DNA from: Catenuloplanes indicus
GTDB lineage: Bacteria; Actinomycetota; Actinomycetes; Mycobacteriales; Micromonosporaceae
Length of the DNA stretch: 64,000 nt
Direction of reading: 5' to 3'
Assembly (NCBI RefSeq): GCF_030813715.1
Contig: NZ_JAUSUZ010000001.1
Coordinates: 5,332,001 to 5,396,000 of the forward strand
In this document: in pieces, positions 10,101 through 58,968 of the stretch
Layout: each line of letters starts with the position of its first letter
Position numbering within the stretch: the first letter of the stretch is position 1
The notes under the pieces: model-generated
The model's input: the letters and a program-made list of their open reading frames with translations, nothing else
The model's database searches: none
What the model was told of the DNA's origin: nothing
Program-made: the position numbers and the translations under genes

Positions 10101-11333
10101 GTGGGACGACTGAGCAAGCTCCGGCGTAACCTCCGCCGGGCGTACGAGGCGCGTTCGCCTTCGCCGGCACCGCCGCCCGCGATGATCGAGGTGCCGCCGT
10201 CCGAGGACCCACCCGAGATCACCCACACGTCGACGATAAGCCGCGACGACGCCGAGGTCCCGCACGCGCTGCGCCTGGCCGCGGCCTGGTCATGGCGGCT
10301 GATCGTGGTCGGCGTGATCGGCTACGTGCTGCTCCGCTTCCTCGCCACGATCCGCATCGTGGTGATCCCGCTGTCCGTGGCGCTGTTGCTCTCCGCACTG
10401 CTCACGCCCGCGGTCGGCTGGCTGCTCCGGCTGCGCTTCCCACGCTCGCTGGCGACCGCGCTGGTGCTGGTCGCCGGCCTCGGCGCGGTCGCGGGCACGC
10501 TCACCATGGTGGTCACCCAGTTCGTCGACGGCCTGCCCCAGCTCAGCCAGAACGCCACGGTCGGCATCCGGCAGATCCAGGACTGGCTGCGCGAAGGCCC
10601 GCTGCGCCTGGACGACGAACAGTTCAACACCGCGCTCAACACCGGCCAGCAGTGGCTCGACCAGAACACCCAGGCGCTCACCACCGGCGCGGTCTCCACC
10701 GCGGCCACCGTGTTCGAGCTCTTCACCGGCGCGCTGCTGGTGCTGTTCTCGACGTTCTTCTTCCTCCGCGACGGCCGCCGGATCTGGCGGTTCACGGTCC
10801 GCCTGTTCCCGGTCAACGCCCGCTGGCGGATGGCCGACGCCGGCGAGGCCGCCTGGCGCACCCTCGTTTCCTACGTGCGTGCCACGGTCCTGGTCGCGTT
10901 CATCGACGCGGTCGGCATCGGCTTCTTCCTCTTCGTCTTCGACGTGCCGTTCCCGTTCCCGCTGGCCGCCCTGGTCTTCCTCGGCGCGTTCGTCCCGATC
11001 GTCGGGGCCACCGTCTCCGGCGCGGTCGCGATCCTGGTCGCACTGGTCGACAGCGGCTGGGTCACCGCCCTGATCATCCTGGGCGTGGTGATCGCCGTCC
11101 AGCAGGTCGAGGGCCACATCCTCCAGCCCCTCATCATGGGCCGCGCGGTCGCCATCCACCCCCTGGCCGTCATCGTCGGCATCGCCGCCGGCGTCGTCCT
11201 GGCCGGCATCACCGGCGCGCTTGTAGCGGTCCCGCTGATCGCGGTCCTCAACACCGCGGTCCGCCGCCTCACCTCCGACACGCGCCCCGAGGTCCCACCG
11301 GACGCGATCGTCGTCAACCCGAAAACCGTATAA
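10101..11333 (+). CDS. AI-2E family transporter (UPF0118 permease)
   Basis: About 410 residues with a cytosolic N-terminus of about 55 residues, eight hydrophobic segments and a large extracytoplasmic loop between TM3 and TM4. FLGAFVPIVGATVSGAVAILVAL and QQVEGHILQPLIMGRAVAIHPLAV are the family hallmarks. Members export small molecules or act as Na+(Li+)/H+ antiporters; the AI-2 name is historical. GTG 10101 is chosen because GGAGG ends 5 nt before it; GTG 10095 is an alternative two codons upstream. Confidence 0.88.
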   Translation: MGRLSKLRRNLRRAYEARSPSPAPPPAMIEVPPSEDPPEITHTSTISRDDAEVPHALRLAAAWSWRLIVVGVIGYVLLRFLATIRIVVIPLSVALLLSALLTPAVGWLLRLRFPRSLATALVLVAGLGAVAGTLTMVVTQFVDGLPQLSQNATVGIRQIQDWLREGPLRLDDEQFNTALNTGQQWLDQNTQALTTGAVSTAATVFELFTGALLVLFSTFFFLRDGRRIWRFTVRLFPVNARWRMADAGEAAWRTLVSYVRATVLVAFIDAVGIGFFLFVFDVPFPFPLAALVFLGAFVPIVGATVSGAVAILVALVDSGWVTALIILGVVIAVQQVEGHILQPLIMGRAVAIHPLAVIVGIAAGVVLAGITGALVAVPLIAVLNTAVRRLTSDTRPEVPPDAIVVNPKTV

Positions 11334-11334
11334 G

Positions 11335-11450
11335 GACGGATTTTCCCGCTTCCGGCGTGGCTGCTTTCCGCATGCTCCCGCGGGCAAACCGCGCGGCGGC
11401 CTCCGACTCCGCTAGCGCTCCGCTCCGGCCACCGCGCCGGAGCCAGTCCC
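11335..11450 (+). repeat. Dispersed intergenic element, full copy A3
   Basis: Begins TTTTCCCGCTTCCGGCGTGG just after the AI-2E stop, passes through GCATGCTCCCGCGGGC and CAAACCGCGCGG, and ends near CGCCGGAGCCAGTCCC. The copy at 44112-44225 (inverted) matches along nearly the whole length. Confidence 0.75.
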
Positions 11451-11534
11451 GCCGCCGCCCCCAAAACTCCTCACACCTTTCCCGTCGACCGGAACGCCCC
11501 AGCCAACTCGACCAATCTCGCTTGTCCGTTTCCC

Positions 11535-11585
11535 GTTGCGGTCCGTGGTGGGTTCCGGTCCGTGGTGCGTTCCGGTCCGCGGTGC
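11535..11585 (+). repeat. 17-bp tandem repeat, three copies
   Basis: Three successive units of the form .CGGTCCG(T/C)GGTG.G.. with few differences. Confidence 0.6.
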
Positions 11586-11733
11586 GGCTCGGCATGCGGT
11601 GTTCAGGTCCGAGATGCGGCTCGGCCTGCGAATTAATCCTGCTCAGCGGGGTGGCTCGGCCCGTGGTTAGGTTCGGCCGACAGCGAGACCCGGTCCACGG
11701 CGCCGGTCGGCCTGCGGTCCGCGTGATCGTGAT

Positions 11734-11756
11734 TTTCGGGCACTTCGTGCCCGAAA
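11734..11756 (+). terminator. Hairpin followed by Ts
   Basis: TTTCGGGCAC and GTGCCCGAAA form a perfect 10-bp stem with a TTC loop, followed by TTT. It could end transcription on either strand; the nearest upstream plus-strand gene ends 400 bp earlier. Confidence 0.5.
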
Positions 11757-11827
11757 TTTCGACATAAAGCAGTTCCGCACTCTACCCAGCATTACTGGGG
11801 CGATCGCAACGCATTCTGGCCCGCAGC

Positions 11828-48159: not shown

Positions 48160-48305
48160 GGAGTCGGCCTTTCGGTCGGCGTTGCTTACGCCGGTCAAGT
48201 TCGGCCGGGTGTGCCACGCCTTGATAGATCGACCTGGTGCTATGCGGTGAGCGCTCGGTTCCCGGCCGGGTGCGGTAATCCACCACCGTTCGGCAACCCG
48301 ACCGC

Positions 48306-48332
48306 TCAGGAACCACTCCCGCACGCCGATAC
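48306..48332 (+). promoter_or_regulatory. FliA/WhiG-type promoter ahead of the GGDEF-like gene
   Basis: TCA (48306-48308), exactly 16 nt, then GCCGATAC (48325-48332). This matches the sigma-28-type -10 box GCCGATAA at 7 of 8 positions. The start codon is 61 nt downstream. Confidence 0.6.
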
Positions 48333-48392
48333 GGCGGGTATGAGGCGGTCCGGGCCGGTGGCCTGCGCCGTACGACAGGAGGTTTCGCCGTT

Positions 48393-48860
48393 ATGGACGC
48401 CCCGACCGGTGCCATCGACCGCAGCGCGTGGGAGGAGGAGCTGGAGCGTCGGGTCACCGCCGCGTACCGCGGCCGGTACCCGCTGGTGATCGTGCTGCTC
48501 GACCTGGACCACTTCGCGGCCTACCAGGCGGAGCACGGACGGGAGGCCGCCGAGCAGCTGCTCCTGGACTCCGGCGAGGCCTGGCGAGCCCATGTGCGCC
48601 CCGACGACCTGCTCGTCCGGTACGGCGAGGGGCAGTTCGGCGTGATACTCAGCCGGGTGCAGCTGCGCGCGGCGGAACGGATCATCGCGCGACTGCAGCA
48701 GGCCACCCCGGCCGCGCAGACGTTCTCCGCGGGCGTGGCGCTGTGGAACGGCTCCGAGGACTGGCAGTCACTCGTGGCGCGCGCGGTCGAGGCACTGGAG
48801 GCGGCGAAGGACGGCGGCCGCAACCGGTGCGTGGTGCACGGCACCTCCGCGCTGATCTGA
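48393..48860 (+). CDS. Stand-alone degenerate GGDEF-domain protein
   Basis: A 155-residue single GGDEF-like domain. LVIVLLDLDHFAAYQAEHGREAAEQLL matches the metal/GTP region, DDLLVRYGEGQFGVIL stands where RYGGDEFxxLL is expected, and FSAGVALWNGSEDWQSLVARAVEALEAAKDGGRNR follows the usual C-terminal part. GGDEF is GEGQF here, so cyclase activity is doubtful; a GTP- or c-di-GMP-binding role or a protein-interaction role is possible. AGGAGG lies 10 nt before the ATG. It stands at the border of the chemotaxis region. Confidence 0.82.
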   Translation: MDAPTGAIDRSAWEEELERRVTAAYRGRYPLVIVLLDLDHFAAYQAEHGREAAEQLLLDSGEAWRAHVRPDDLLVRYGEGQFGVILSRVQLRAAERIIARLQQATPAAQTFSAGVALWNGSEDWQSLVARAVEALEAAKDGGRNRCVVHGTSALI

Positions 48861-49550
48861 CTACCCGGCGGTCGGCAGCCGCACCGTGATCGCGGCGCCG
48901 GTCCGCGGGTCGAAGCCGATCGACACCGCCCCGCCGTGCCGGTGCGCGATCGCCCGGGCCAGCAACATCCAGAGCGCCAGGCTGCGGGTACGGCCGCCGC
49001 CGGGCACCGGCAGCGAGGTCGCCAGGAAGTACTCGTCGGTGAGCGTCTCGGCCTGCGTGCTGCGGATCGTGACGGTCCAGTGGTCGCCGAAGCAGGCGCC
49101 GTGGATCTCGCCGGTGCCGTCCAGCGCCCGCTCGGTCATCGCGCCGGTGACCGCGTAGAACAACTGGTGCAGCAGGTCCGCGTCGCCCGGGACGGGTGGA
49201 CCGGGCTTCACCGTGCCGCGCACCGCCGCGGTCGGCACCACCCGTTCGACCTCGCGGCCGGCACCGGTGACCACCGGGGCCAGGTCGACCGGCTCGGACT
49301 GCACCGGCAGGTCACCGGACTCCAGGCGGGAGAGCAGCATCAGGTCCTCGATCAGCACCAGCATGCGCTCGGTGTTTCGTTGCACGACGGAGAGCGCGGT
49401 GGGACGTTCCCCCTCGGGCAGGTCGACGCCGGACAGCATCTCCGTGAACGCGGCGATGGAGGTCAGCGGCGTCCGCAACTCGTGCGAGACGACGGCAAGG
49501 AACTGGGCCTTGAATGCATCCCGTGATTCGGGCTCCGGTGCGGTTTTCAC
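48861..49550 (-). CDS. Histidine-kinase-like protein with degenerate ATPase domain
   Basis: About 229 residues from GTG 49550 (AGGA 7 nt upstream). The HisKA part is intact: FLAVVSHELRTPLTSIAAFTEML, with the phospho-His in SHELR. In the ATPase region the N box Asn residues are replaced (LLHQLFYAVTGAM), no DxGxG is visible and the G2 position reads RSLALWMLLARAIAHRHGG. ATP binding is therefore doubtful. No sensor or TM domain, so it is cytosolic. Divergent from an OmpR-type regulator, a likely partner. Confidence 0.8.
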   Translation of the reverse strand: MKTAPEPESRDAFKAQFLAVVSHELRTPLTSIAAFTEMLSGVDLPEGERPTALSVVQRNTERMLVLIEDLMLLSRLESGDLPVQSEPVDLAPVVTGAGREVERVVPTAAVRGTVKPGPPVPGDADLLHQLFYAVTGAMTERALDGTGEIHGACFGDHWTVTIRSTQAETLTDEYFLATSLPVPGGGRTRSLALWMLLARAIAHRHGGAVSIGFDPRTGAAITVRLPTAG

Positions 49551-49739
49551 GAGCGGTCCTGTTTCGGATGCGGGCGCAAGCAGTGACTTCCCACGATAAA
49601 CTCTGACTGTTCGGTTTTTTGCTCCTAATATCACCTTATAGGCATCGTAACCGATTCATGCCATATGGGCGGCTCTGGACGATGCTTCAGGGGGTGGGCT
49701 AATGCAGGGACCCATGTGTGCCCGGGCGGGGGCGATCCG

Positions 49740-50438
49740 GTGAGCAAGCTTCTGGTCGTCGAGGACGATCCGGACATCGCGCTGGCTCTGCGGATGCTCT
49801 TCGGTCGCGCCGGGTATGACATCTCACACGCCTCCGACGGCCGTAGCGGACTGCGCGAGGCCTACACGGAGAAGCCCGATCTGGTCGTCCTGGACGTGGG
49901 ACTGCCGGAGATGGACGGCTGGCAGGTGCTGGAGCGGCTGCGGGACGTCTCGGACGTACCGGTGCTGGTCCTGACCGCGCACGGCCAGGAGGCGGAGAAG
50001 GTGCGCGGCCTGCGCGGCGGCGCCGACGACTACCTCACCAAGCCGTTCGCGAACGCGGAACTGCTGGCCCGTGTCGAGGCGCTGCTGCGCCGCTCGTCGT
50101 CCGGCCAGAACAGCTGGGCCAGCCAGGTCTACGACGACGGCGTCGTGCACCTGGACCCCACCCGGCGGCGCGTGTACGTCAAGGGGGAGGAGGTCCGGCT
50201 CACGCCGACCGAGTTCCGTCTGCTGAACGCGCTCGTCCGGCACGCCGGCGCGGTACTCAGCCCGAACCAGCTGCTGACCCAGGCGTGGGACGACCCGACC
50301 GGCATCGGCCAGGAGCGGGTGAAGTTCGCCGTGCTGCGCCTGCGCCGCAAGCTCGGCTGGTCCGACCCCGAAGAGTCACCCATCGAATCGGTACGAGGTT
50401 TCGGCTACCGGTACCGGAAGGCCAACCCCGATGCCTGA
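49740..50438 (+). CDS. Response regulator, OmpR/PhoB family
   Basis: About 232 residues. Receiver: KLLVVEDDPDIALAL, phospho-Asp in LVVLDVGLPEMDGW, VLVLTAHGQ, DDYLTKPF. The winged helix has VRLTPTEFRLLNALVRHAGAVLSPNQLLTQAWDD and ERVKFAVLRLRRKLG...IESVRGFGYRYRK. It starts at GTG 49740. The 189-base divergent region to the kinase gene is AT-richer than average. The cheA promoter begins only 5 nt after the stop. Confidence 0.92.
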   Translation: MSKLLVVEDDPDIALALRMLFGRAGYDISHASDGRSGLREAYTEKPDLVVLDVGLPEMDGWQVLERLRDVSDVPVLVLTAHGQEAEKVRGLRGGADDYLTKPFANAELLARVEALLRRSSSGQNSWASQVYDDGVVHLDPTRRRVYVKGEEVRLTPTEFRLLNALVRHAGAVLSPNQLLTQAWDDPTGIGQERVKFAVLRLRRKLGWSDPEESPIESVRGFGYRYRKANPDA

Positions 50439-50442
50439 TTCC

Positions 50443-50469
50443 TCAAGTACGTCCTTTTTCGGTCGATAG
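50443..50469 (+). promoter_or_regulatory. FliA/WhiG-type promoter of the cheA-cheW transcript
   Basis: TCA (50443-50445), exactly 16 nt, then GTCGATAG (50462-50469), 30 nt before the cheA GTG. Confidence 0.55.
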
Positions 50470-50499
50470 GGCTCCTGCACCGGAGCAGGAGGGAAGCCT

Positions 50500-52914
50500 G
50501 TGGAAGAGCTTGGCGAGATCGTCGGCGAGTTCCTGATGGAGAGCCACGAGAACCTGGACCAACTGGACCGGGACCTCGTGTCGCTGGAGCAGGACCCCGG
50601 ATCGCGTGACCTGATCTCACGCATCTTTCGGACGATCCACACAATCAAGGGCACCAGCGGATTCCTCGCGTTCTCTCGGCTGGAGACCCTGACCCACGCC
50701 GGTGAGTCGCTGCTGTCGCGACTGCGCGACGGTGTGCAGCCGGTGACCGCGGAGACCATCACCGCACTGCTCGCGATGCTGGACGGCGTCCGAGCGCTGC
50801 TGGCCACGATCGAGGAGACCGGCGCCGAGGGCGACGTCGACGTGGACGGCATCATCGCCACCGTCAACGCGCAGATGGCCGAGCCGGGCGCCGCCCCCGC
50901 CGCGGCCAAGCCGGCCGCCGAGAAGCCCGCCGCCGAGGAAGCCCCGGCCGAGGCCGAGGCCGAGAAGCCCAAGGCGCCGGCCGGTGTGCCGTCCGCGTTC
51001 GAGGACGAGGCCGCATCGGACGAGTCCGGCGAGCAGCGCCCCACCCCGGAGCCGATCGAGGAGCAGCGCAAGCCGATCGGTGAGCAGCTGGTCGAGTCCG
51101 GCGCCGCCACCACCGCGGACGTCGCCTCCGCGCTGCAGCAGCAGATCGAGGGCGACGAGCGCAAGCTCGGCACGATCCTGCTCGACGAGGGCAAGACCGC
51201 ACCGGCCGCGGTCAGCGACGCCGTGCAGAACCAGGCGCCGAAGCGCAGCGTCGCGGACAGCGCGATCCGCGTCGACGTCGACCTGCTCGACGGCCTGATG
51301 AACCTGGTCGGTGAGCTGGTGCTGGCCCGCAACCAGCTGGTCCGCGGCGTGGCCGAGACCGGCGACCAGGCGATGGTACGCAGCGCCCAGCGGCTCAACC
51401 TGATCACCAGTGAGCTGCAAGAGGGCATCATGAAGACCCGTATGCAGCCGATCGACCACATCTGGTCGAAGCTGCCGCGAGTCGTCCGGGACCTCTCCAA
51501 GGCGCTGGACAAGCAGATCAACCTGGTCATGGAGGGCAAGGAGACCGAGCTCGACCGGACGCTGCTGGAGGCGGTCAAGGACCCGCTGACCCACCTGGTC
51601 CGCAACGCGGTCGACCACGGCATCGAGGACGTACCCACCCGTCTCGCCGCCGGCAAGGGCCCGGAGGGCACGCTCACGCTGCGCGCGTTCCACGAGGGCG
51701 GCCACGTCACGGTGGAGGTCGCGGACGACGGCGCCGGCCTGAACGTGGAGCGGATCGCGAAGAAGGCCGTGGAGAACGGCCTGGCCAAGCCGGAGCAGAT
51801 CGCGAACATGGACCGGCGCGAGATCATGTCGATGGTCTTCCAGCCCGGGTTCTCCACCGCCGCGAAGGTCACCAACGTCTCCGGCCGCGGCGTCGGCATG
51901 GACGTGGTGAAGACCAACATCGAGCGCGTCGGCGGCGCGGTCGGCGTCGACTCCATCCCGGGCAAGGGCACCACCTGGCGCCTCACCATCCCGCTGACGC
52001 TGGCGATCATCCAGGCGCTCACCATCGACTGCGCCGACCAGCGGTACGTGGTGCCGCAGGCCTCGGTGCTGGAACTGGTCTTCATCGACGGCAACTCGAC
52101 GAAGATCGAGTACGCGTCCGGCGCGCCGGTCTACCGGCTGCGCGGCAAGCTGCTCCCGCTGGTCCGCCTGGACCGCACGCTCGGCCTGCCGGTCGGCGGC
52201 GACCAGGGCGTCTACATCGTGGTGCTGCAGGCCGACGGCCGCAGCTTCGGCCTGGTCGTGGACCGCGTCCTCAACACCGAGGAGGTCGTGGTCAAGGCGC
52301 TCAACTCGCGGTTCAAGGACGTCGGCCTGTACGCCGGCGCCACCATCCTGGGCCACGGCAAGGTCGGCCTGATCCTGGACGTCGCGTCGCTGGCCCGCCG
52401 GTCGAACCTGGCGACCAGCTCGGAGCGCGACTCCAGCATCAGCGCGCGGGACAGCCGCGGCCCGAGTGACAACGCGGAGCGCCTGCTGGTCACCGCGGTC
52501 GGCGAGCGCCGGGTGGCGATCCCGCTGGACACGGTCACCCGCCTGGAGGAGTTCCCGATCGCGAAGATCGAGCACGCCGGCAGCCGGGAGGTCGTGCAGT
52601 ACCGCGGCCAGATCCTGCCGCTGGTCCGGCTGTCGTACCTGCTCGGTGCGATGCCGGAGGAGACCGGCGAGACGGTCTCCGTGGTGGTCTACAGCGAGGG
52701 CGAGCGCAGCGTCGCGCTGGTCGTCGACAAGATCGTGGACATCGTGGAGGACGCGATGACCGCCCGCCGGAACGTCGACGACGACGGCCTGGTCGGCACC
52801 GCGGTCATCCAGCAGCGGGTCACCGAGCTGCTCGACGTCCGCCGCGCGATCGTCGCGGCCGACCCGAACTTCTACAGCGACCTGCACGAGGACGAGATGC
52901 TGGTGGAGGCCTGA
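50500..52914 (+). CDS. cheA: Chemotaxis histidine kinase CheA with two CheW-like domains
   Basis: An 804-residue kinase. Hpt domain at 1-105 with phospho-His47 in IHTIKGTSGF; an Ala/Pro/Glu-rich linker to about 185; a duplicated motif IGEQLVESGAAT and LGTILLDEGKTA at about 192-245. The P3 dimerisation helices follow (to about 315), then an HATPase domain with HLVRNAVDHGIE (Asn369) and GRGVGMDVVKTNIERVGG. Two CheW-like domains end the protein (about 500-635 and 665-795), the second beyond the usual CheA length. GTG start. It phosphorylates the CheY and CheB proteins encoded downstream. Confidence 0.96.
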   Translation: MEELGEIVGEFLMESHENLDQLDRDLVSLEQDPGSRDLISRIFRTIHTIKGTSGFLAFSRLETLTHAGESLLSRLRDGVQPVTAETITALLAMLDGVRALLATIEETGAEGDVDVDGIIATVNAQMAEPGAAPAAAKPAAEKPAAEEAPAEAEAEKPKAPAGVPSAFEDEAASDESGEQRPTPEPIEEQRKPIGEQLVESGAATTADVASALQQQIEGDERKLGTILLDEGKTAPAAVSDAVQNQAPKRSVADSAIRVDVDLLDGLMNLVGELVLARNQLVRGVAETGDQAMVRSAQRLNLITSELQEGIMKTRMQPIDHIWSKLPRVVRDLSKALDKQINLVMEGKETELDRTLLEAVKDPLTHLVRNAVDHGIEDVPTRLAAGKGPEGTLTLRAFHEGGHVTVEVADDGAGLNVERIAKKAVENGLAKPEQIANMDRREIMSMVFQPGFSTAAKVTNVSGRGVGMDVVKTNIERVGGAVGVDSIPGKGTTWRLTIPLTLAIIQALTIDCADQRYVVPQASVLELVFIDGNSTKIEYASGAPVYRLRGKLLPLVRLDRTLGLPVGGDQGVYIVVLQADGRSFGLVVDRVLNTEEVVVKALNSRFKDVGLYAGATILGHGKVGLILDVASLARRSNLATSSERDSSISARDSRGPSDNAERLLVTAVGERRVAIPLDTVTRLEEFPIAKIEHAGSREVVQYRGQILPLVRLSYLLGAMPEETGETVSVVVYSEGERSVALVVDKIVDIVEDAMTARRNVDDDGLVGTAVIQQRVTELLDVRRAIVAADPNFYSDLHEDEMLVEA

Positions 52915-52915
52915 G

Positions 52916-53359
52916 ATGGCGACCCGACAATTCGCCACGTTCGAGGTGGCGGGGCAGCTCTTCGGCGTCGAGGTGCACACGGTGCAGGAGGTGCTCTCCT
53001 ACAACGAGTACACGATGGTGCCGCTGGCCCCGTCCGCGGTCGGCGGGCTGTTCAATCTGCGCGGCCAGGTGATCGCGGCGGTGGACCTGCGGGTGCAGCT
53101 GGGTCTGCCCCGGCAGTCGCTGGACGGCCCGGTGATGAACGTGATCCTGCGCGGCGACGAGGAGCCGGTCAGCCTGCTGGTCGACAAGATCGGCGAGGTG
53201 GTCGACCTGGACGAGGCCACGTTCGAACCGCCGCCGGACACGCTGAACGGCCCGACCCGCGAGCTGGTCGTCGGCACGTTCAAGCTGGAAGGCCGCCTGA
53301 TGCTGGCGCTCAACGTGGCTCAGGCAGTTGACACCTACCGCACCCCGGCCGTGAGCTAG
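52916..53359 (+). CDS. cheW: Chemotaxis coupling protein
   Basis: A 147-residue CheW: QFATFEVAGQLFGVEVHTVQEVLSYNEYTMVPLAPSAVGGLFNLRGQVIAAVDLRVQLGLP, then SLLVDKIGEVVDLD. It couples CheA to receptors, none of which are in this window. It begins 2 nt after the cheA stop and is followed by a strong terminator, so cheA-cheW is a two-gene transcript. Confidence 0.96.
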   Translation: MATRQFATFEVAGQLFGVEVHTVQEVLSYNEYTMVPLAPSAVGGLFNLRGQVIAAVDLRVQLGLPRQSLDGPVMNVILRGDEEPVSLLVDKIGEVVDLDEATFEPPPDTLNGPTRELVVGTFKLEGRLMLALNVAQAVDTYRTPAVS

Positions 53360-53379
53360 GGCCAGTGATCATCTCCGGA

Positions 53380-53429
53380 CCCTCGCACCCCCGTGCCGCC
53401 GACCCGTCGGCGGGCGATGGGTGCGAGGG
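53380..53429 (+). terminator. Terminator after cheW
   Basis: CCCTCGCACCC (53380-53390) pairs with GGGTGCGAGGG (53419-53429), with an inner GCCGCCGACC/TCGGCGGGC pairing. Confidence 0.85.
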
Positions 53430-53460
53430 TTCGCTGTTTAAGGCCGGGTGCTGATTTCTC

Positions 53461-54336
53461 GTGTACAGCCTTGTCAGTGCGCCCGTGCTCGGCTTCGACC
53501 TGACCCGGTTGGCCGGTGGTGCCGCCACCGCCGAGGTGCTGCTGCGGGCGTTGCGGCTGAGCCGGGAGGACCTGCCGGTGCTGGCCGGCACGCTGCCGAG
53601 CGAGGAGATCCGCGCGCCGCTCTGGCTCGAGGTGGAGAGCGCGGCACGCCAGGTGCCGACGCTGCGCGGGCTGTCCGACATGGCGGACTCCGCGGCCGCG
53701 CTCACCATGGTCGAGCGCGCGCCGATCGGCAGCGTCGACTCGCTGCTCACCTGCGTGCGCTACGACGTGATGTCCTGGACCTGGGTCGGCAAGGGCCGCG
53801 GCGCCCGCCAGGACGACGTCGCGGAGAAGGCGACCGCGCTGCTCTGTGACGCGGTGGTCGCGTCGTACCTGCGCGAGGTCCTGGACGACACGGTGCGCCG
53901 CCGGCTCGGCGCCGGCTGGGTGGCCGCGGTCCGCCGGCTGCCCGGTGGCCCGCCGGTCGACCTCGGCCCGCACCACTACGTGGTCTCCTCGCTGCTGGAA
54001 CGGCTGCGCTCGCTGACCGGGTCGGACGTGGAACGGCTGATCCGCTCCGGCGAGGACGCGCGGGTGAACTCCGGCGGCTGGTCCCCGGCCGTGCACTCGG
54101 CGTCCTGGGCGGCGTACCTGTCCGACCGGATCCGCACGGCCGCGGCCGCCCAGCTGCTGCTGGTGCAGGCGATCGACACGTCCGCGGTGCCGATGTCCGC
54201 GCGGGCCGGCGGCGTCTGGAACATGCTCAGCGGCGCGGTCCAGGCGCTGGTGGTCCGGGACCTGCTGGACACCGGTACCGCGCACCGGCTGCTGAGCCCG
54301 GTCGTAGCCGCTTTGGGGCCAGCATGGCTGTCCTGA
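53461..54336 (+). CDS. Unknown protein embedded in the che cluster
   Basis: A 291-residue, mostly helical, Ala/Arg/Leu-rich soluble protein with no signal peptide. Segments such as LRALRLSREDLPVLAGTLPSEEIRAPLW, CVRYDVMSWTWVGKGRGARQDDVAEKATALLCDAVVASYLREVL, HHYVVSSLLERLRSLTG and NSGGWSPAVHSASWAAYLSDRIRTAAAAQLLLVQAIDTSAVPMSARAGGVWNMLSGAVQALVVRDLLD are not familiar to me. It lies alone between the cheW terminator and the cheB promoter. GTG 53461 is the first start; a GTG at 53482 is possible. A role in motility or chemotaxis is inferred from position only. Confidence 0.75.
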   Translation: MYSLVSAPVLGFDLTRLAGGAATAEVLLRALRLSREDLPVLAGTLPSEEIRAPLWLEVESAARQVPTLRGLSDMADSAAALTMVERAPIGSVDSLLTCVRYDVMSWTWVGKGRGARQDDVAEKATALLCDAVVASYLREVLDDTVRRRLGAGWVAAVRRLPGGPPVDLGPHHYVVSSLLERLRSLTGSDVERLIRSGEDARVNSGGWSPAVHSASWAAYLSDRIRTAAAAQLLLVQAIDTSAVPMSARAGGVWNMLSGAVQALVVRDLLDTGTAHRLLSPVVAALGPAWLS

Positions 54337-54363
54337 CCGTTATATCCCCGTTGCGAGAAAGCC

Positions 54364-54390
54364 TCAATTCGGTCGCGGTGGGGTCGATTC
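54364..54390 (+). promoter_or_regulatory. FliA/WhiG-type promoter of the cheB operon
   Basis: TCA (54364-54366), exactly 16 nt, then GTCGATTC (54383-54390), 65 nt before the cheB GTG. The -10 match is weaker than at 48325. Confidence 0.45.
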
Positions 54391-54454
54391 AAGGTTGCGG
54401 GTGGGGTGCGCACAGCGCGCAGACCCACCGGATGTGGCGCAGGGAGGCGAGGAA

Positions 54455-55612
54455 GTGACGATCGCAGTGATGGTGGTCGACGACTCAGTGGTCGTCCGCC
54501 GGCTGATCGTGGACGCGCTCGACGGCATGCCCGACATCAAGGTCGTCGGCACCGCCTCCAACGGCCGTCTGGCCCAGGCGAAGATCGACCAGCTGAAGCC
54601 GGACGTCATCACCATGGACATCGAGATGCCCGAGATGAACGGCATCGAGGCGGTCCGGGAGCTGCGCAAACGGCACAAGACGCCGGTGATCATGTTCAGT
54701 ACGCTCAGCGCTGCGGGCGCCACCGCGACGCTGGACGCGCTGGCCGCCGGTGCCACCGACTACGTCACCAAACCGGCGAACGTCGGCAGCGTGCAGGCCT
54801 CCATCCAGGCGGTACGCGACCAGCTGGTGCCGAAGATCCACGCGCTGGCCGGACGCCGCGGCGGACCGCCGATGGCCGGCCGGCCACCGGCCCGCCCGAC
54901 GGCCCCGATGGCCCCGGTCCGTCCCGGCGGTCCGATGGGCCGCCCCGGACTGCCGCCGCTGGCCGGCGGCCCGGCCCCGCACGGCGGTCCCGGGGCGCCC
55001 ACCGGCCGGATCGACCTGATCGCGGTCGGCTGCTCGACCGGCGGCCCGGACGCGCTCGCCCGGGTGGTGCAGTCCTTCCCCGGAGACCTGCCGGTGCCGG
55101 TGGTGGTCACCCAGCACATGCCGCCGGTCTTCACGAAGATGTTCGCCGAACGGCTGGACCGCACGAACGCGATCCAGGTCGTCGAGGCGACGGACGGCAT
55201 GACGCTCAAGCCGGGCGCCATGTACATCGCTCCCGGCGATCGCCACCTCGTCCTGGTCAAACGAGGAACCGGCGTGGTCACCCAGCTGTCCACGGCGCCA
55301 CCGGAGAACTCATGCCGGCCCGCCGTGGACGTGATGTTCCGAGCGGTCGGCCGCGCCTACGGCGGCTCGACCCTCGCCGTGATCCTGACCGGCATGGGTC
55401 AGGACGGCCGCAATGGCTGCCAGGAACTCCGGGCGGCCGGCGCCGAGATCGTCGCGCAGGACGAGGCGACCTCGGTGGTGTGGGGAATGCCCGGCGCGGT
55501 GGTCACCGCGAACCTCGCCCATACCGTGCTGCCGCTGGACCAGATCGGCCCGTACCTGACCTCTCGTGTGAACGCCGGCCGCACGGCTCGGCCGAAGGTG
55601 GTGACTCGATGA
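54455..55612 (+). CDS. cheB: Protein-glutamate methylesterase CheB
   Basis: About 385 residues. Receiver domain with VMVVDDSVVVRRLIVDAL and phospho-Asp55 in VITMDIEMPEMNG. A long Pro/Gly/Met-rich linker (about 145-185) follows, then the methylesterase domain: IAVGCSTGGPDAL (Ser), VVVTQHMPPVFTKMFAERLD (His), LTGMGQDGRNG (Asp). It removes methyl groups from receptors and deamidates them. Start GTG with GGGAGGCGAGG upstream; first gene of a tightly packed operon running to 58178. Confidence 0.96.
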   Translation: MTIAVMVVDDSVVVRRLIVDALDGMPDIKVVGTASNGRLAQAKIDQLKPDVITMDIEMPEMNGIEAVRELRKRHKTPVIMFSTLSAAGATATLDALAAGATDYVTKPANVGSVQASIQAVRDQLVPKIHALAGRRGGPPMAGRPPARPTAPMAPVRPGGPMGRPGLPPLAGGPAPHGGPGAPTGRIDLIAVGCSTGGPDALARVVQSFPGDLPVPVVVTQHMPPVFTKMFAERLDRTNAIQVVEATDGMTLKPGAMYIAPGDRHLVLVKRGTGVVTQLSTAPPENSCRPAVDVMFRAVGRAYGGSTLAVILTGMGQDGRNGCQELRAAGAEIVAQDEATSVVWGMPGAVVTANLAHTVLPLDQIGPYLTSRVNAGRTARPKVVTR

Positions 55613-56454
55613 CACTGTCTCAACAAGACTTCTCATTCGTCGCTGGGCTCGTGCGACGCGAGGCGTCGATCGTGCTGGCACCGGGCAAGGAATACCTGGT
55701 CGAGGCACGGCTGATCCCGGTCGCCCGGCAGGTCGGCGCGGCCAGCGTGACCGAGTTCCTGGCGAACATGCAGCGCCGTCCGGATCCCACGCACCAGCGG
55801 ATGATCGTGGACGCGCTGACCACGAACGAGACGTCCTGGTTCCGGGACCGTGAGCCGTTCACCGCCCTCACCGAGCAGATCCTGCCGGATCTGATCAGCG
55901 CCCGGGCGACCAGTCGCAAGCTGCGCTTCTGGTCGGCCGCGTGCTCCAGCGGGCAGGAGCCGTACAGCTTGGCGATCACGCTGCAGCAGGCGCTGCCGGC
56001 CGGCTGGAACTACGAGATCGTCGGCAGCGACATCTCCACCGAGATGATCAAGCGGGCCGAGGCCGGCGAGTTCAGCCAGGTGGAGATCAACCGGGGCCTG
56101 CCGGCCGCGCAGCTCGTGCACTACTTCGAGCGGGCCGGAGCGCACTGGCGGATCGCGCCCTCGCTGCGGCGCAACGTCTCCTTCACCCGGCTGAACCTGA
56201 CCGCGCCGCTGCCGCCGATGCCGCCGTTCGACGTCGTGTTCCTGCGCAACGTGCTCATCTACTTCGACGTGGACACCAAGCGCACCGTGTTGCGCAACAT
56301 CGGCCGGATGCTGCGGCCGGACGGGTGGCTCTTCCTGGGAGCCGCCGAGACAACAATCGGCATCGATGACAACTATGAGCGGGTCGTAGCCGGGCGCACG
56401 TCGGCGTACCGACTCAAGTCCGCGGTGCCGGCCGGCACCGCACGGAAGGGGTGA
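55609..56454 (+). CDS. cheR: Chemotaxis protein methyltransferase CheR
   Basis: A 281-residue SAM-dependent methyltransferase. The N-terminal helical domain is followed by TTNETSWFRDREPFTALTEQILPDL, the SAM site FWSAACSSGQEPYSLAITLQQ, DISTEMIKRAEAGEFSQVEINRGLP and FDVVFLRNVLIYFDVDTKRTVLRNIGRMLRPDGWLFLGAAET. Starts in the cheB stop (ATGA). Confidence 0.96.
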   Translation: MTLSQQDFSFVAGLVRREASIVLAPGKEYLVEARLIPVARQVGAASVTEFLANMQRRPDPTHQRMIVDALTTNETSWFRDREPFTALTEQILPDLISARATSRKLRFWSAACSSGQEPYSLAITLQQALPAGWNYEIVGSDISTEMIKRAEAGEFSQVEINRGLPAAQLVHYFERAGAHWRIAPSLRRNVSFTRLNLTAPLPPMPPFDVVFLRNVLIYFDVDTKRTVLRNIGRMLRPDGWLFLGAAETTIGIDDNYERVVAGRTSAYRLKSAVPAGTARKG

Positions 56455-58223: not shown

Positions 58224-58302
58224 ACGCGTTCCGGGACAGGAGACACCCGATCACGACGTGAGCCGCACCCCGTCCGGAATTCCTGGGATCCCGTCGCAAC
58301 CG

Positions 58303-58310
58303 GCCGATAA
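58303..58310 (+). promoter_or_regulatory. Exact GCCGATAA box ahead of the Gly-rich protein gene
   Basis: A perfect sigma-28-type -10 box inside a small palindrome (AACCGGCCGATAACCGGTT), 47 nt before the ATG. No TCA is found 16 nt upstream, so promoter function is less certain than for the che sites. Confidence 0.4.
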
Positions 58311-58356
58311 CCGGTTTACAGCGGGCCGTCTACCCCCGGTCCGGAAGGAGATCGAC

Positions 58357-58968
58357 ATGGGTTCCATCAGCAGCATCAGCGGTGGGGCGAACACCGCGTA
58401 CGCGAACAGCGGCCGCGTCGAGCGCCGCGACCCGATGGCCACCGTCGCCAAGACGCTCGGCCTGGACAACAACACCCTCCGGGAGAAGATGAAGGAGGGG
58501 AACTCGCTCGCCGACATCGCGGAGACGCAGGGCGTCGCGAACGACGACCTGATCGCCGCGATCAAGCAGGGTCTGCCGGTGGACAAGGCCAACTCACCGC
58601 AGGCCACCGAGCTGGCGGAGTCGCTGGCCAATGCGACGAACGCGGGCGCGCTGGCCGCGGCCGGCGGTGCGGGCGGCCCGGGCGGCGCCGGTGCCGGCGG
58701 TCCGGGCGGCGGTCCCGGTGGCGGCCCGGGCGGCGGTCCCGGCGGCCAGCTCGGTGGTCCCGGGCTCAGCAGCCCGCCCCGCGCGACCACGGAATCGGAG
58801 TCGCTCAGCCGGATCAGCAATCTGCTGGAGATGTCCACCGACGAGGTCAGCGAGCAGGTGCACAGCGCCACCGACCTGCTCAACCTGGCCAGCTCCAAGG
58901 GCGTCACCACCGAGCAGCTGACCTCGGTCCTGCAGCGCAGCGGCAGCCTGGTCGACGTACGCGTCTGA
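58357..58968 (+). CDS. Gly-rich linker protein at the end of the che region, unknown
   Basis: About 203 residues. A Ser/Gly-rich start (GSISSISGGAN), then a helical block LGLDNNTLREKMKEGNSLADIAETQGVANDDLIAAIKQ (about 30-70). A Gly/Pro linker of about 40 residues made of GGP repeats follows (about 105-145), and a second helical block LLEMSTDEVSEQVHSATDLLNLASSKGVTTEQLTSVLQ closes it. The two helical blocks resemble each other. No signal peptide. AAGGAG lies 7 nt before the ATG. Position suggests a link to motility or sporulation. Confidence 0.72.
   Translation: MGSISSISGGANTAYANSGRVERRDPMATVAKTLGLDNNTLREKMKEGNSLADIAETQGVANDDLIAAIKQGLPVDKANSPQATELAESLANATNAGALAAAGGAGGPGGAGAGGPGGGPGGGPGGGPGGQLGGPGLSSPPRATTESESLSRISNLLEMSTDEVSEQVHSATDLLNLASSKGVTTEQLTSVLQRSGSLVDVRV

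Follow-up and report, generated by a model that had tools for sequence, protein, structure and literature searches.

Predicted FliA-family promoters ahead of cheA and a degenerate GGDEF gene in Catenuloplanes indicus, and a candidate c-di-GMP branch of the motile-spore regulon

Classical sigma-28 promoters carry their two boxes at a fixed distance, TAAA-N15-GCCGATAA, and the flagellar promoters of Actinoplanes missouriensis reportedly follow another form, CTCA(N15-17)GCCGAA (attributed to Jang et al. 2016). Here, we investigated sites of the latter type in a 64-kb stretch of Catenuloplanes indicus (hereafter the window; positions 5332001-5396000 of a 9.25-Mb genome), where they stand ahead of the chemotaxis genes cheA and cheB and of a gene for a degenerate GGDEF protein, a member of a family linked to cyclic di-GMP (c-di-GMP). 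Catenuloplanes has been named among the swimming-spore actinomycetes (PMC12691653), and zoospore formers such as Actinoplanes are described as having the most GGDEF domains among the Actinobacteria surveyed (PMC10746217). The flagellar and pilus genes of Actinoplanes are described as transcribed by WhiG-like sigma factors, in a genus that has WhiG and is reported there to be without RsiG (PMC8325347). The same source describes several WhiG-type promoters ahead of pilus genes and of genes for diguanylate cyclases and phosphodiesterases (DGC/PDE) in Rubrobacter, five of those identified in R. radiotolerans preceding DGC/PDE genes (PMC8325347).

The original prediction had placed sites of the form TCA-N16-G(C/T)CGAT(A/T) at window positions 48306, 50443 and 54364, and all three were found on the plus strand with a spacing of exactly 16 nucleotides (nt). 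Together with the genes that they precede, they are as follows.

48305-48330, plus strand: CTCA-N16-GCCGAT promoter-like site of the degenerate GGDEF gene; its -10 box starts 68 nt before the start codon
48393-48860, plus strand: stand-alone GGDEF-domain protein of 155 amino acids (Pfam PF00990, 2.3e-23; aligned with solved GGDEF domains)
50442-50467, plus strand: CTCA-N16-GTCGAT promoter-like site of cheA; its -10 box starts 38 nt before the start codon
50500-52914, plus strand: cheA (Pfam Hpt, H-kinase_dim, HATPase_c, CheW)
54363-54388, plus strand: CTCA-N16-GTCGAT, a weaker candidate promoter of cheB; its -10 box starts 72 nt before the start codon
54455-55612, plus strand: cheB (Pfam CheB_methylest and Response_reg)

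The -10 box lies close to GCCGATAA in all three, reading GCCGAT at the GGDEF gene and GTCGAT at cheA and cheB. No further match occurs on either strand of the window, where 0.15 would be expected, and none of 100 shuffles reached three; because the degenerate pattern had been fitted to these very sites, these probabilities are too optimistic, and the density of the other 28 genome matches gives a chance of about 0.001 for three sites in 64 kb. From the sequence, we consider it highly likely that a FliA-family sigma factor reads the cheA site and that of the degenerate GGDEF gene as promoters. For these two the promoter reading has good support; it is uncertain for cheB and unsupported for a Gly-rich protein gene further downstream. 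Two of the three sites look like genuine switches of the swimming-spore program.

Genes were predicted over 144 kb by a simple script, and their upstream regions were then scanned. Since the flagellar cluster starts directly downstream of the window, the chemotaxis and flagellar genes form one neighbourhood. Among 39 upstream regions of this cluster, TCA-Ns-G(C/T)CGAT occurs nine times at s = 16 and never at s = 8-15 or 17-24, while the same scan of 61 control upstream regions gave two sites at s = 16 and three over the other spacings. Three of the nine, those from which the pattern was noticed, stand before the window genes (GGDEF, cheA and cheB); beyond the window, the other six precede flhA, fliM, fliF, flgB, fliC and one chemoreceptor gene. 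At the 16-nt spacing, flgN-flgK has GCCGAC, and a further fliC site reads GCCGAA. Four of the 21 chemoreceptor (PF00015) matches in the genome carry TCA-N16-G(C/T)CGAT (one being the cluster chemoreceptor already counted among the nine), compared with two over 25 other spacings. Together with the cheA site in 42 of 52 relatives (see below), these counts make the motif commoner at motility genes, as originally proposed: the fixed-spacing sites at che and flagellar genes and at the GGDEF gene are supported, whereas the case for cheB is weaker and the Gly-rich gene lacks support.

The proposed -10 consensus, GCCGATAA, did not hold up. The exact 8-mer is not enriched (40 in the genome against 46 for the reversed control), and it was dropped as a working consensus for this reason; TCA-N16-GCCGATAA has only two matches in the genome, before a CHASE-GGDEF gene and before a pilB gene with an MshEN domain. 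CTCA-N16-GCCGA(T/A) is the consensus with better support, of sigma-28 type but with CTCA in place of TAAA as its -35 box. CTCA-N16-GCCGAT has 73 genome matches against 17 for the reversed pattern, and C precedes TCA in all 51 aligned cheA sites, 11 of 12 cluster sites and all six chemoreceptor sites (one site being shared). The promoters of the proposed regulon would thus combine a -35 CTCA, 16 nt and a -10 GCCGAT or GCCGAA, with GTCGAT at cheA.

Compared with the reported A. missouriensis flagellar promoters, these sites share the -35 CTCA, the -10 core GCCGA, the spacing range of 15-17 nt, the association with flagellar genes and the bacterial family, although cheA and cheB carry GTCGA. They differ in also preceding cheA, chemoreceptor and GGDEF/EAL genes, and in that GCCGAT outnumbers GCCGAA (over 52 compiled, motif-selected sites, the sixth -10 base is T in 40, A in 11 and C in one). 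Relative to the classical type, TCA-N16 rewritten as TCAN-N15 gives the same distance between the boxes as TAAA-N15-GCCGATAA, whereas the -35 box has in common with TAAA only its T and the A at the third position, and -10 positions 7-8 are not AA. The -10 core is like that given for the classical sigma-28/WhiG promoter (-35 TAAA, -10 GCCGATAA; PMC8325347).

Three sigma factor genes score 177-192 bits against the FliA/WhiG model, the next best reaching 115.5, and A. missouriensis is likewise described as having three FliA-family factors (PMC13293333); RNA-seq of a triple mutant of that species is mentioned in PMC11064477. All three factors of C. indicus (one encoded at L006:11929-12804) share ESR(V/I)SQLRAEAL in region 4; the corresponding residues of two solved relatives are SQIH and SQLH. 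This SQLR may explain CTCA versus TAAA. The organism offers a natural case of a FliA family apparently reading CTCA rather than TAAA.

Conservation of the cheA site was read in 52 of 80 fetched loci, namely those with at least 60% identity, a matched protein start and sufficient upstream sequence. TCA-N16-G(C/T)CGAT is exact in 42 of these relatives, at -37 to -43, while 16 other spacings gave zero or one match each, and no spacing-16 sites were found before cheW (69 loci), the response regulator gene preceding cheA (50) or the gene of the protein between cheW and cheB (51). Seven of the ten misses retain TCA and the spacing, with one -10 base differing. In the 51 aligned cheA sites, which were chosen by TCA and the CGA core and are related by descent, the unselected bases are strongly kept too: besides the C before TCA in all 51, G follows TCA in 48, and the -10 core is followed by G in 46 and A in 48. 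Sites like that of the window also lie upstream of cheA in Planobispora, Planomonospora and one Actinosynnema locus. Within Catenuloplanes (C. japonicus, with 94% CheA identity, is the nearest named relative found), the cheA site is kept in all five genomes, as are the boxes of the GGDEF site, with several spacer bases variable; each flagellar site is kept in three or four of the four genomes readable there.

Two further comparisons concern GGDEF genes elsewhere in the genome. In the sister species G004, 26 of the 39 GGDEF matches counted were examined (those listed, the window orthologue excluded), and six upstream regions carry CTCA-N16-GCCGA(T/A), two carry it at N17 and none at 15 other spacings. 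Nine site-bearing genes of C. indicus, seven of them GGDEF genes, have an orthologue in the fetched G004 stretches, and eight keep the site; in these eight pairs, 0 of 80 box positions changed against 29 of 128 spacer positions (Fisher p 4e-7). For a GGDEF-EAL gene that lies before pilB, 30 loci yielded 22 readable upstream regions (six partial matches and two short flanks were excluded, and starts were extrapolated), eight of which have CTCA-N16-GCCGA(T/A), with none at other spacings: five belong to Catenuloplanes and three to another genus, in which the site is present in three of its five loci read.

Across the genome, 98 distinct sites out of the 105 CTCA-N16-GCCGA(T/A) matches were classified by context, the remainder being six places in the already studied stretch and one duplicate. 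Of these, 44 are intergenic, 45 lie at most 170 bp upstream of a same-strand gene start (7.9 expected) and 37 are both (4.3 expected), expectations being derived from the local gene layout. Among 44 site-to-gene distances, 27 fall at 34-72 nt and six at 14-16 nt, where transcription would start near the start codon. The 45 upstream sites precede 44 genes, 40 of which were scanned with Pfam; flhA and fliC were identified separately, one gene was assigned GGDEF by a separate match and the remaining one is a 43-codon frame. Among the products of the 40 are 11 GGDEF proteins, of which five also have EAL, an EAL-DICT protein and four chemoreceptors, one of them carrying PilZ; nine others have a histidine-kinase ATPase domain, one is PilB with its MshEN domain, and the rest are surface proteins, enzymes or proteins with no assigned role. 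With gene number estimated, the site precedes 13 of the 61 above-cut-off GGDEF matches, the window gene and the separately assigned one included (0.29 expected, about 45-fold) and 5 of the 21 chemoreceptor matches, including the cluster one (0.10 expected). The chemoreceptor with a C-terminal PilZ domain, at home-genome position 6033982, has its own CTCA-N16-GCCGAA site and is a possible direct link between c-di-GMP and chemotaxis.

The predicted regulon would comprise flagellar genes, cheA, chemoreceptors, 13 GGDEF genes (five of them GGDEF-EAL) and an EAL gene, as well as the PilZ chemoreceptor, histidine kinases and pilB with its MshEN domain. The likely mechanism is that the swimming-spore switch would also install dedicated makers, breakers and receivers of c-di-GMP. 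In its combination of type IV pilus and c-di-GMP enzyme genes under a FliA/WhiG-family sigma factor, the candidate regulon resembles the WhiG regulon described for R. radiotolerans, where the search used the classical consensus (PMC8325347).

The GGDEF protein of the window very probably belongs to this FliA-family regulon rich in c-di-GMP genes. In an active diguanylate cyclase the signature reads GG(D/E)EF, and the I-site is defined as RxxD five residues before it; loss of the former with an intact RxxD characterises GGDEF proteins that serve as c-di-GMP receptors and have ceased to produce it. The window protein, which has an orthologue of at least 85% identity in all five Catenuloplanes genomes, reads GEGQF, GDGQF or GDGRF in these five, and the acidic third signature residue is missing in each; RPDD (four) or RPHD (one) stands five residues ahead. 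It is therefore predicted to be a c-di-GMP receptor near the chemotaxis system and not a cyclase. Receptors of the PopA type likewise combine a lost catalytic signature with an intact RxxD I-site, whereas the window protein, a putative c-di-GMP binder, is a single 155-amino-acid domain without receiver domains. Among the 80 cheA loci, its orthologue occurs in C. japonicus only, and ten other loci have a GGDEF match at 28-36%; the Planobispora and Planomonospora cheA loci have a same-strand GGDEF match of 29-36% identity within the fetched stretch.

We tentatively propose, as a possibility that falls well short of an even chance, that the FliA-family motile-spore program deploys a c-di-GMP circuit, wired below the sigma factor in a setting where RsiG is reported missing (Actinoplanes), and that the catalytically dead GGDEF protein reads c-di-GMP through its I-site. 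The circuit would then take in about one-fifth of the GGDEF genes, the EAL gene, the PilZ chemoreceptor and the MshEN pilus motor; it would hold for Catenuloplanes and, judged by a single gene, for a second genus of the family. It would place c-di-GMP downstream of the sigma factor rather than holding the sigma factor, and the GGDEF protein encoded next to cheA would bear on swimming, on chemotaxis or on the choice to stop swimming. In filamentous actinomycetes, the building, release and stopping of zoospores follow a set order. A sharp, conserved promoter signature that sets about 13 of the roughly 60 GGDEF genes apart yields a short list of likely swimming-spore c-di-GMP proteins. The promoter type itself is already known from Actinoplanes; what appears new, as far as we have seen, is how far the c-di-GMP branch extends. 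We found no published description of such a branch in Actinoplanes or Catenuloplanes, although the primary papers on Actinoplanes flagellar promoters and FliA, which were outside our coverage, may mention c-di-GMP genes.

What was computed is the fixed spacing, the location upstream of genes, the conservation and the gene content, from which we infer that at least one of the three FliA-family sigma factors recognises the sites and that their use is timed with zoospore formation. Several observations weigh against this interpretation. The -35 CTCA departs from the classical TAAA, and only one of the three sigma genes, that of the flagellar cluster, exceeds the curated cut-off of the family. CTCA-N16-GCCGAA has 32 genome matches against 34 in the reversed control and thus shows no excess. 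TCA-N16-G(C/T)CGAT also occurs inside cluster genes (five sense and two antisense in 51.6 kb), as it does inside control genes (one sense and six antisense in 74.7 kb). The exact site is missing from 10 of 52 cheA upstream regions, 14 of 22 GGDEF-EAL upstream regions, 48 of 61 GGDEF matches and 16 of 21 chemoreceptor matches, the last two by CTCA-N16-GCCGA(T/A), and the ninth G004 orthologue pair has no recognisable site, which brings the changes over all nine pairs to 4 of 90 box and 37 of 144 spacer positions. Because 53 of the 98 classified sites lie outside the 170 bp upstream of any same-strand gene and the pattern occurs in coding sequence too, the motif alone does not define a promoter. 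This placement would also suit a reading of the three window sites as chance matches to a pattern fitted afterwards, as would the choice of the pattern from those same sites with bases left variable (C/T, A/T). Such coincidence is nevertheless very improbable: gene sets outside the fit (chemoreceptors, cheA relatives, sister-species GGDEF genes and flagellar genes) show the same spacing, boxes are conserved where spacers vary, and chance is already contradicted for the cheA and GGDEF sites. Alternatively, the sites may be real and the regulon an ordinary flagellar one, its site-bearing c-di-GMP genes being scattered recruits without coordinated function. Flagellar regulons elsewhere contain c-di-GMP genes too, such as the Pseudomonas putida bifA, described as partly under FliA, and the site marks only the 13 of 61 GGDEF matches. 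We regard this alternative as unlikely, given the size of the GGDEF enrichment over expectation, the retention of the site in six of the seven GGDEF genes that carry it and have a counterpart in the fetched G004 stretches, and its presence at partners that have c-di-GMP-binding domains by family (PilZ chemoreceptor, MshEN pilB).

The two remaining places for which the original prediction had proposed promoters lead to different alternatives, both involving a repeat similar to the published TcrA box, nnGCA(A/C)CCG-n4-GCA(A/C)CCGn as given in PMC12691653. The cheB site may be no promoter at all, with cheB transcription continuing from the cheA operon or starting at a TcrA-type promoter, and to this we give slightly less than an even chance. 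CTCA-N16-GTCGAT is exact in four of the five Catenuloplanes genomes, and the space before cheB measures 118 nt here and 121 nt in C. japonicus; the site is, however, not kept in C. japonicus, which has TTA for TCA, and a TcrA-box-like repeat with two mismatches lies nearby (54392-54409, minus strand). Conservation of the box carries little weight, since the whole cheB upstream region is highly conserved. The gap between the upstream gene and cheB is only 11-16 nt in 40 of the 51 relatives measured (no start position could be assigned in six of the remaining eleven), so that the site would be specific to Catenuloplanes, and its occurrence in 1 of 43 relatives was for the same reason set aside as evidence against it. 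We therefore regard it as at most an accessory Catenuloplanes promoter. At the second place, the GCCGATAA before the Gly-rich gene is present as predicted (58303-58310), but TGG stands 16 nt upstream instead of TCA, and it was rejected as a sigma-28 promoter for want of a -35 match and for its position inside a conserved TcrA-box-like repeat. The features concerned are as follows.

58296-58313, plus strand: TcrA-box-like direct repeat GCAACCG-GCCG-ATAACCG containing GCCGATAA, not counted as a sigma-28 promoter
58357-58968, plus strand: Gly-rich protein gene, present in all five Catenuloplanes genomes

Since this repeat resembles the published TcrA box, it is read as a likely activator site, and the 58303 GCCGATAA is probably, if by no means certainly, part of a putative TcrA-type site rather than a sigma-28 -10 box. 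In favour, the TCA is missing at spacing 16, the repeat 58296-58313 matches the published box (PMC12691653) at 12 of 14 positions, and the direct repeat GC(A/G)ACCG-GCCG-AT(A/G)ACCG is present in all five Catenuloplanes species, with an A to G change in both half-sites of genome G003. On the other hand, that paired change is confined to one species and could be a coincidence, two-mismatch repeats are frequent across the 144 kb, genes included, TcrA binding is here a prediction from the letters, and a conserved CCTG(A/G)GATC at the -35 position would be compatible with an unusual promoter. Beyond the window, at 96902-96919 in its numbering, fliA is preceded by another TcrA-box-like repeat, with a single mismatch, in all four Catenuloplanes genomes read, which suggests that TcrA may drive fliA. 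In the 90 bp upstream of 53 CTCA-type sites, TcrA-box-like repeats show no excess with two or three mismatches, and a half-site spacing profile has no clear peak at 11. Repeats with at most one mismatch stand upstream of 3 of the 53, compared with 0.6% of 339 background windows; one of the three, before the GGDEF gene (48256-48273, minus strand), is poorly kept in other species. The Gly-rich gene was matched in C. japonicus only among the 80 fetched cheA loci, and there (11207-11818 of the fetched locus) it is inverted in place compared with its orientation in the window and in three further Catenuloplanes genomes.

The other annotated genes of the che cluster are as follows.

52916-53359, plus strand: cheW (Pfam CheW)
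53461-54336, plus strand: conserved protein between cheW and cheB (no Pfam family at E 0.05)
55609-56454, plus strand: cheR (Pfam CheR)

The conserved protein without a Pfam family was matched in 69 of the 80 fetched loci, its identity falling to 33-38% in Geodermatophilus, Blastococcus and Modestobacter loci. FtgA, a protein of the A. missouriensis che cluster, is reported to halt zoospore swimming (PMC11960193). A perfect 12-bp inverted repeat, ACCCTCGCACCC / GGGTGCGAGGGT, lies 3′ of cheW at 53379-53430 and could be a terminator or attenuator ahead of the remaining che genes.

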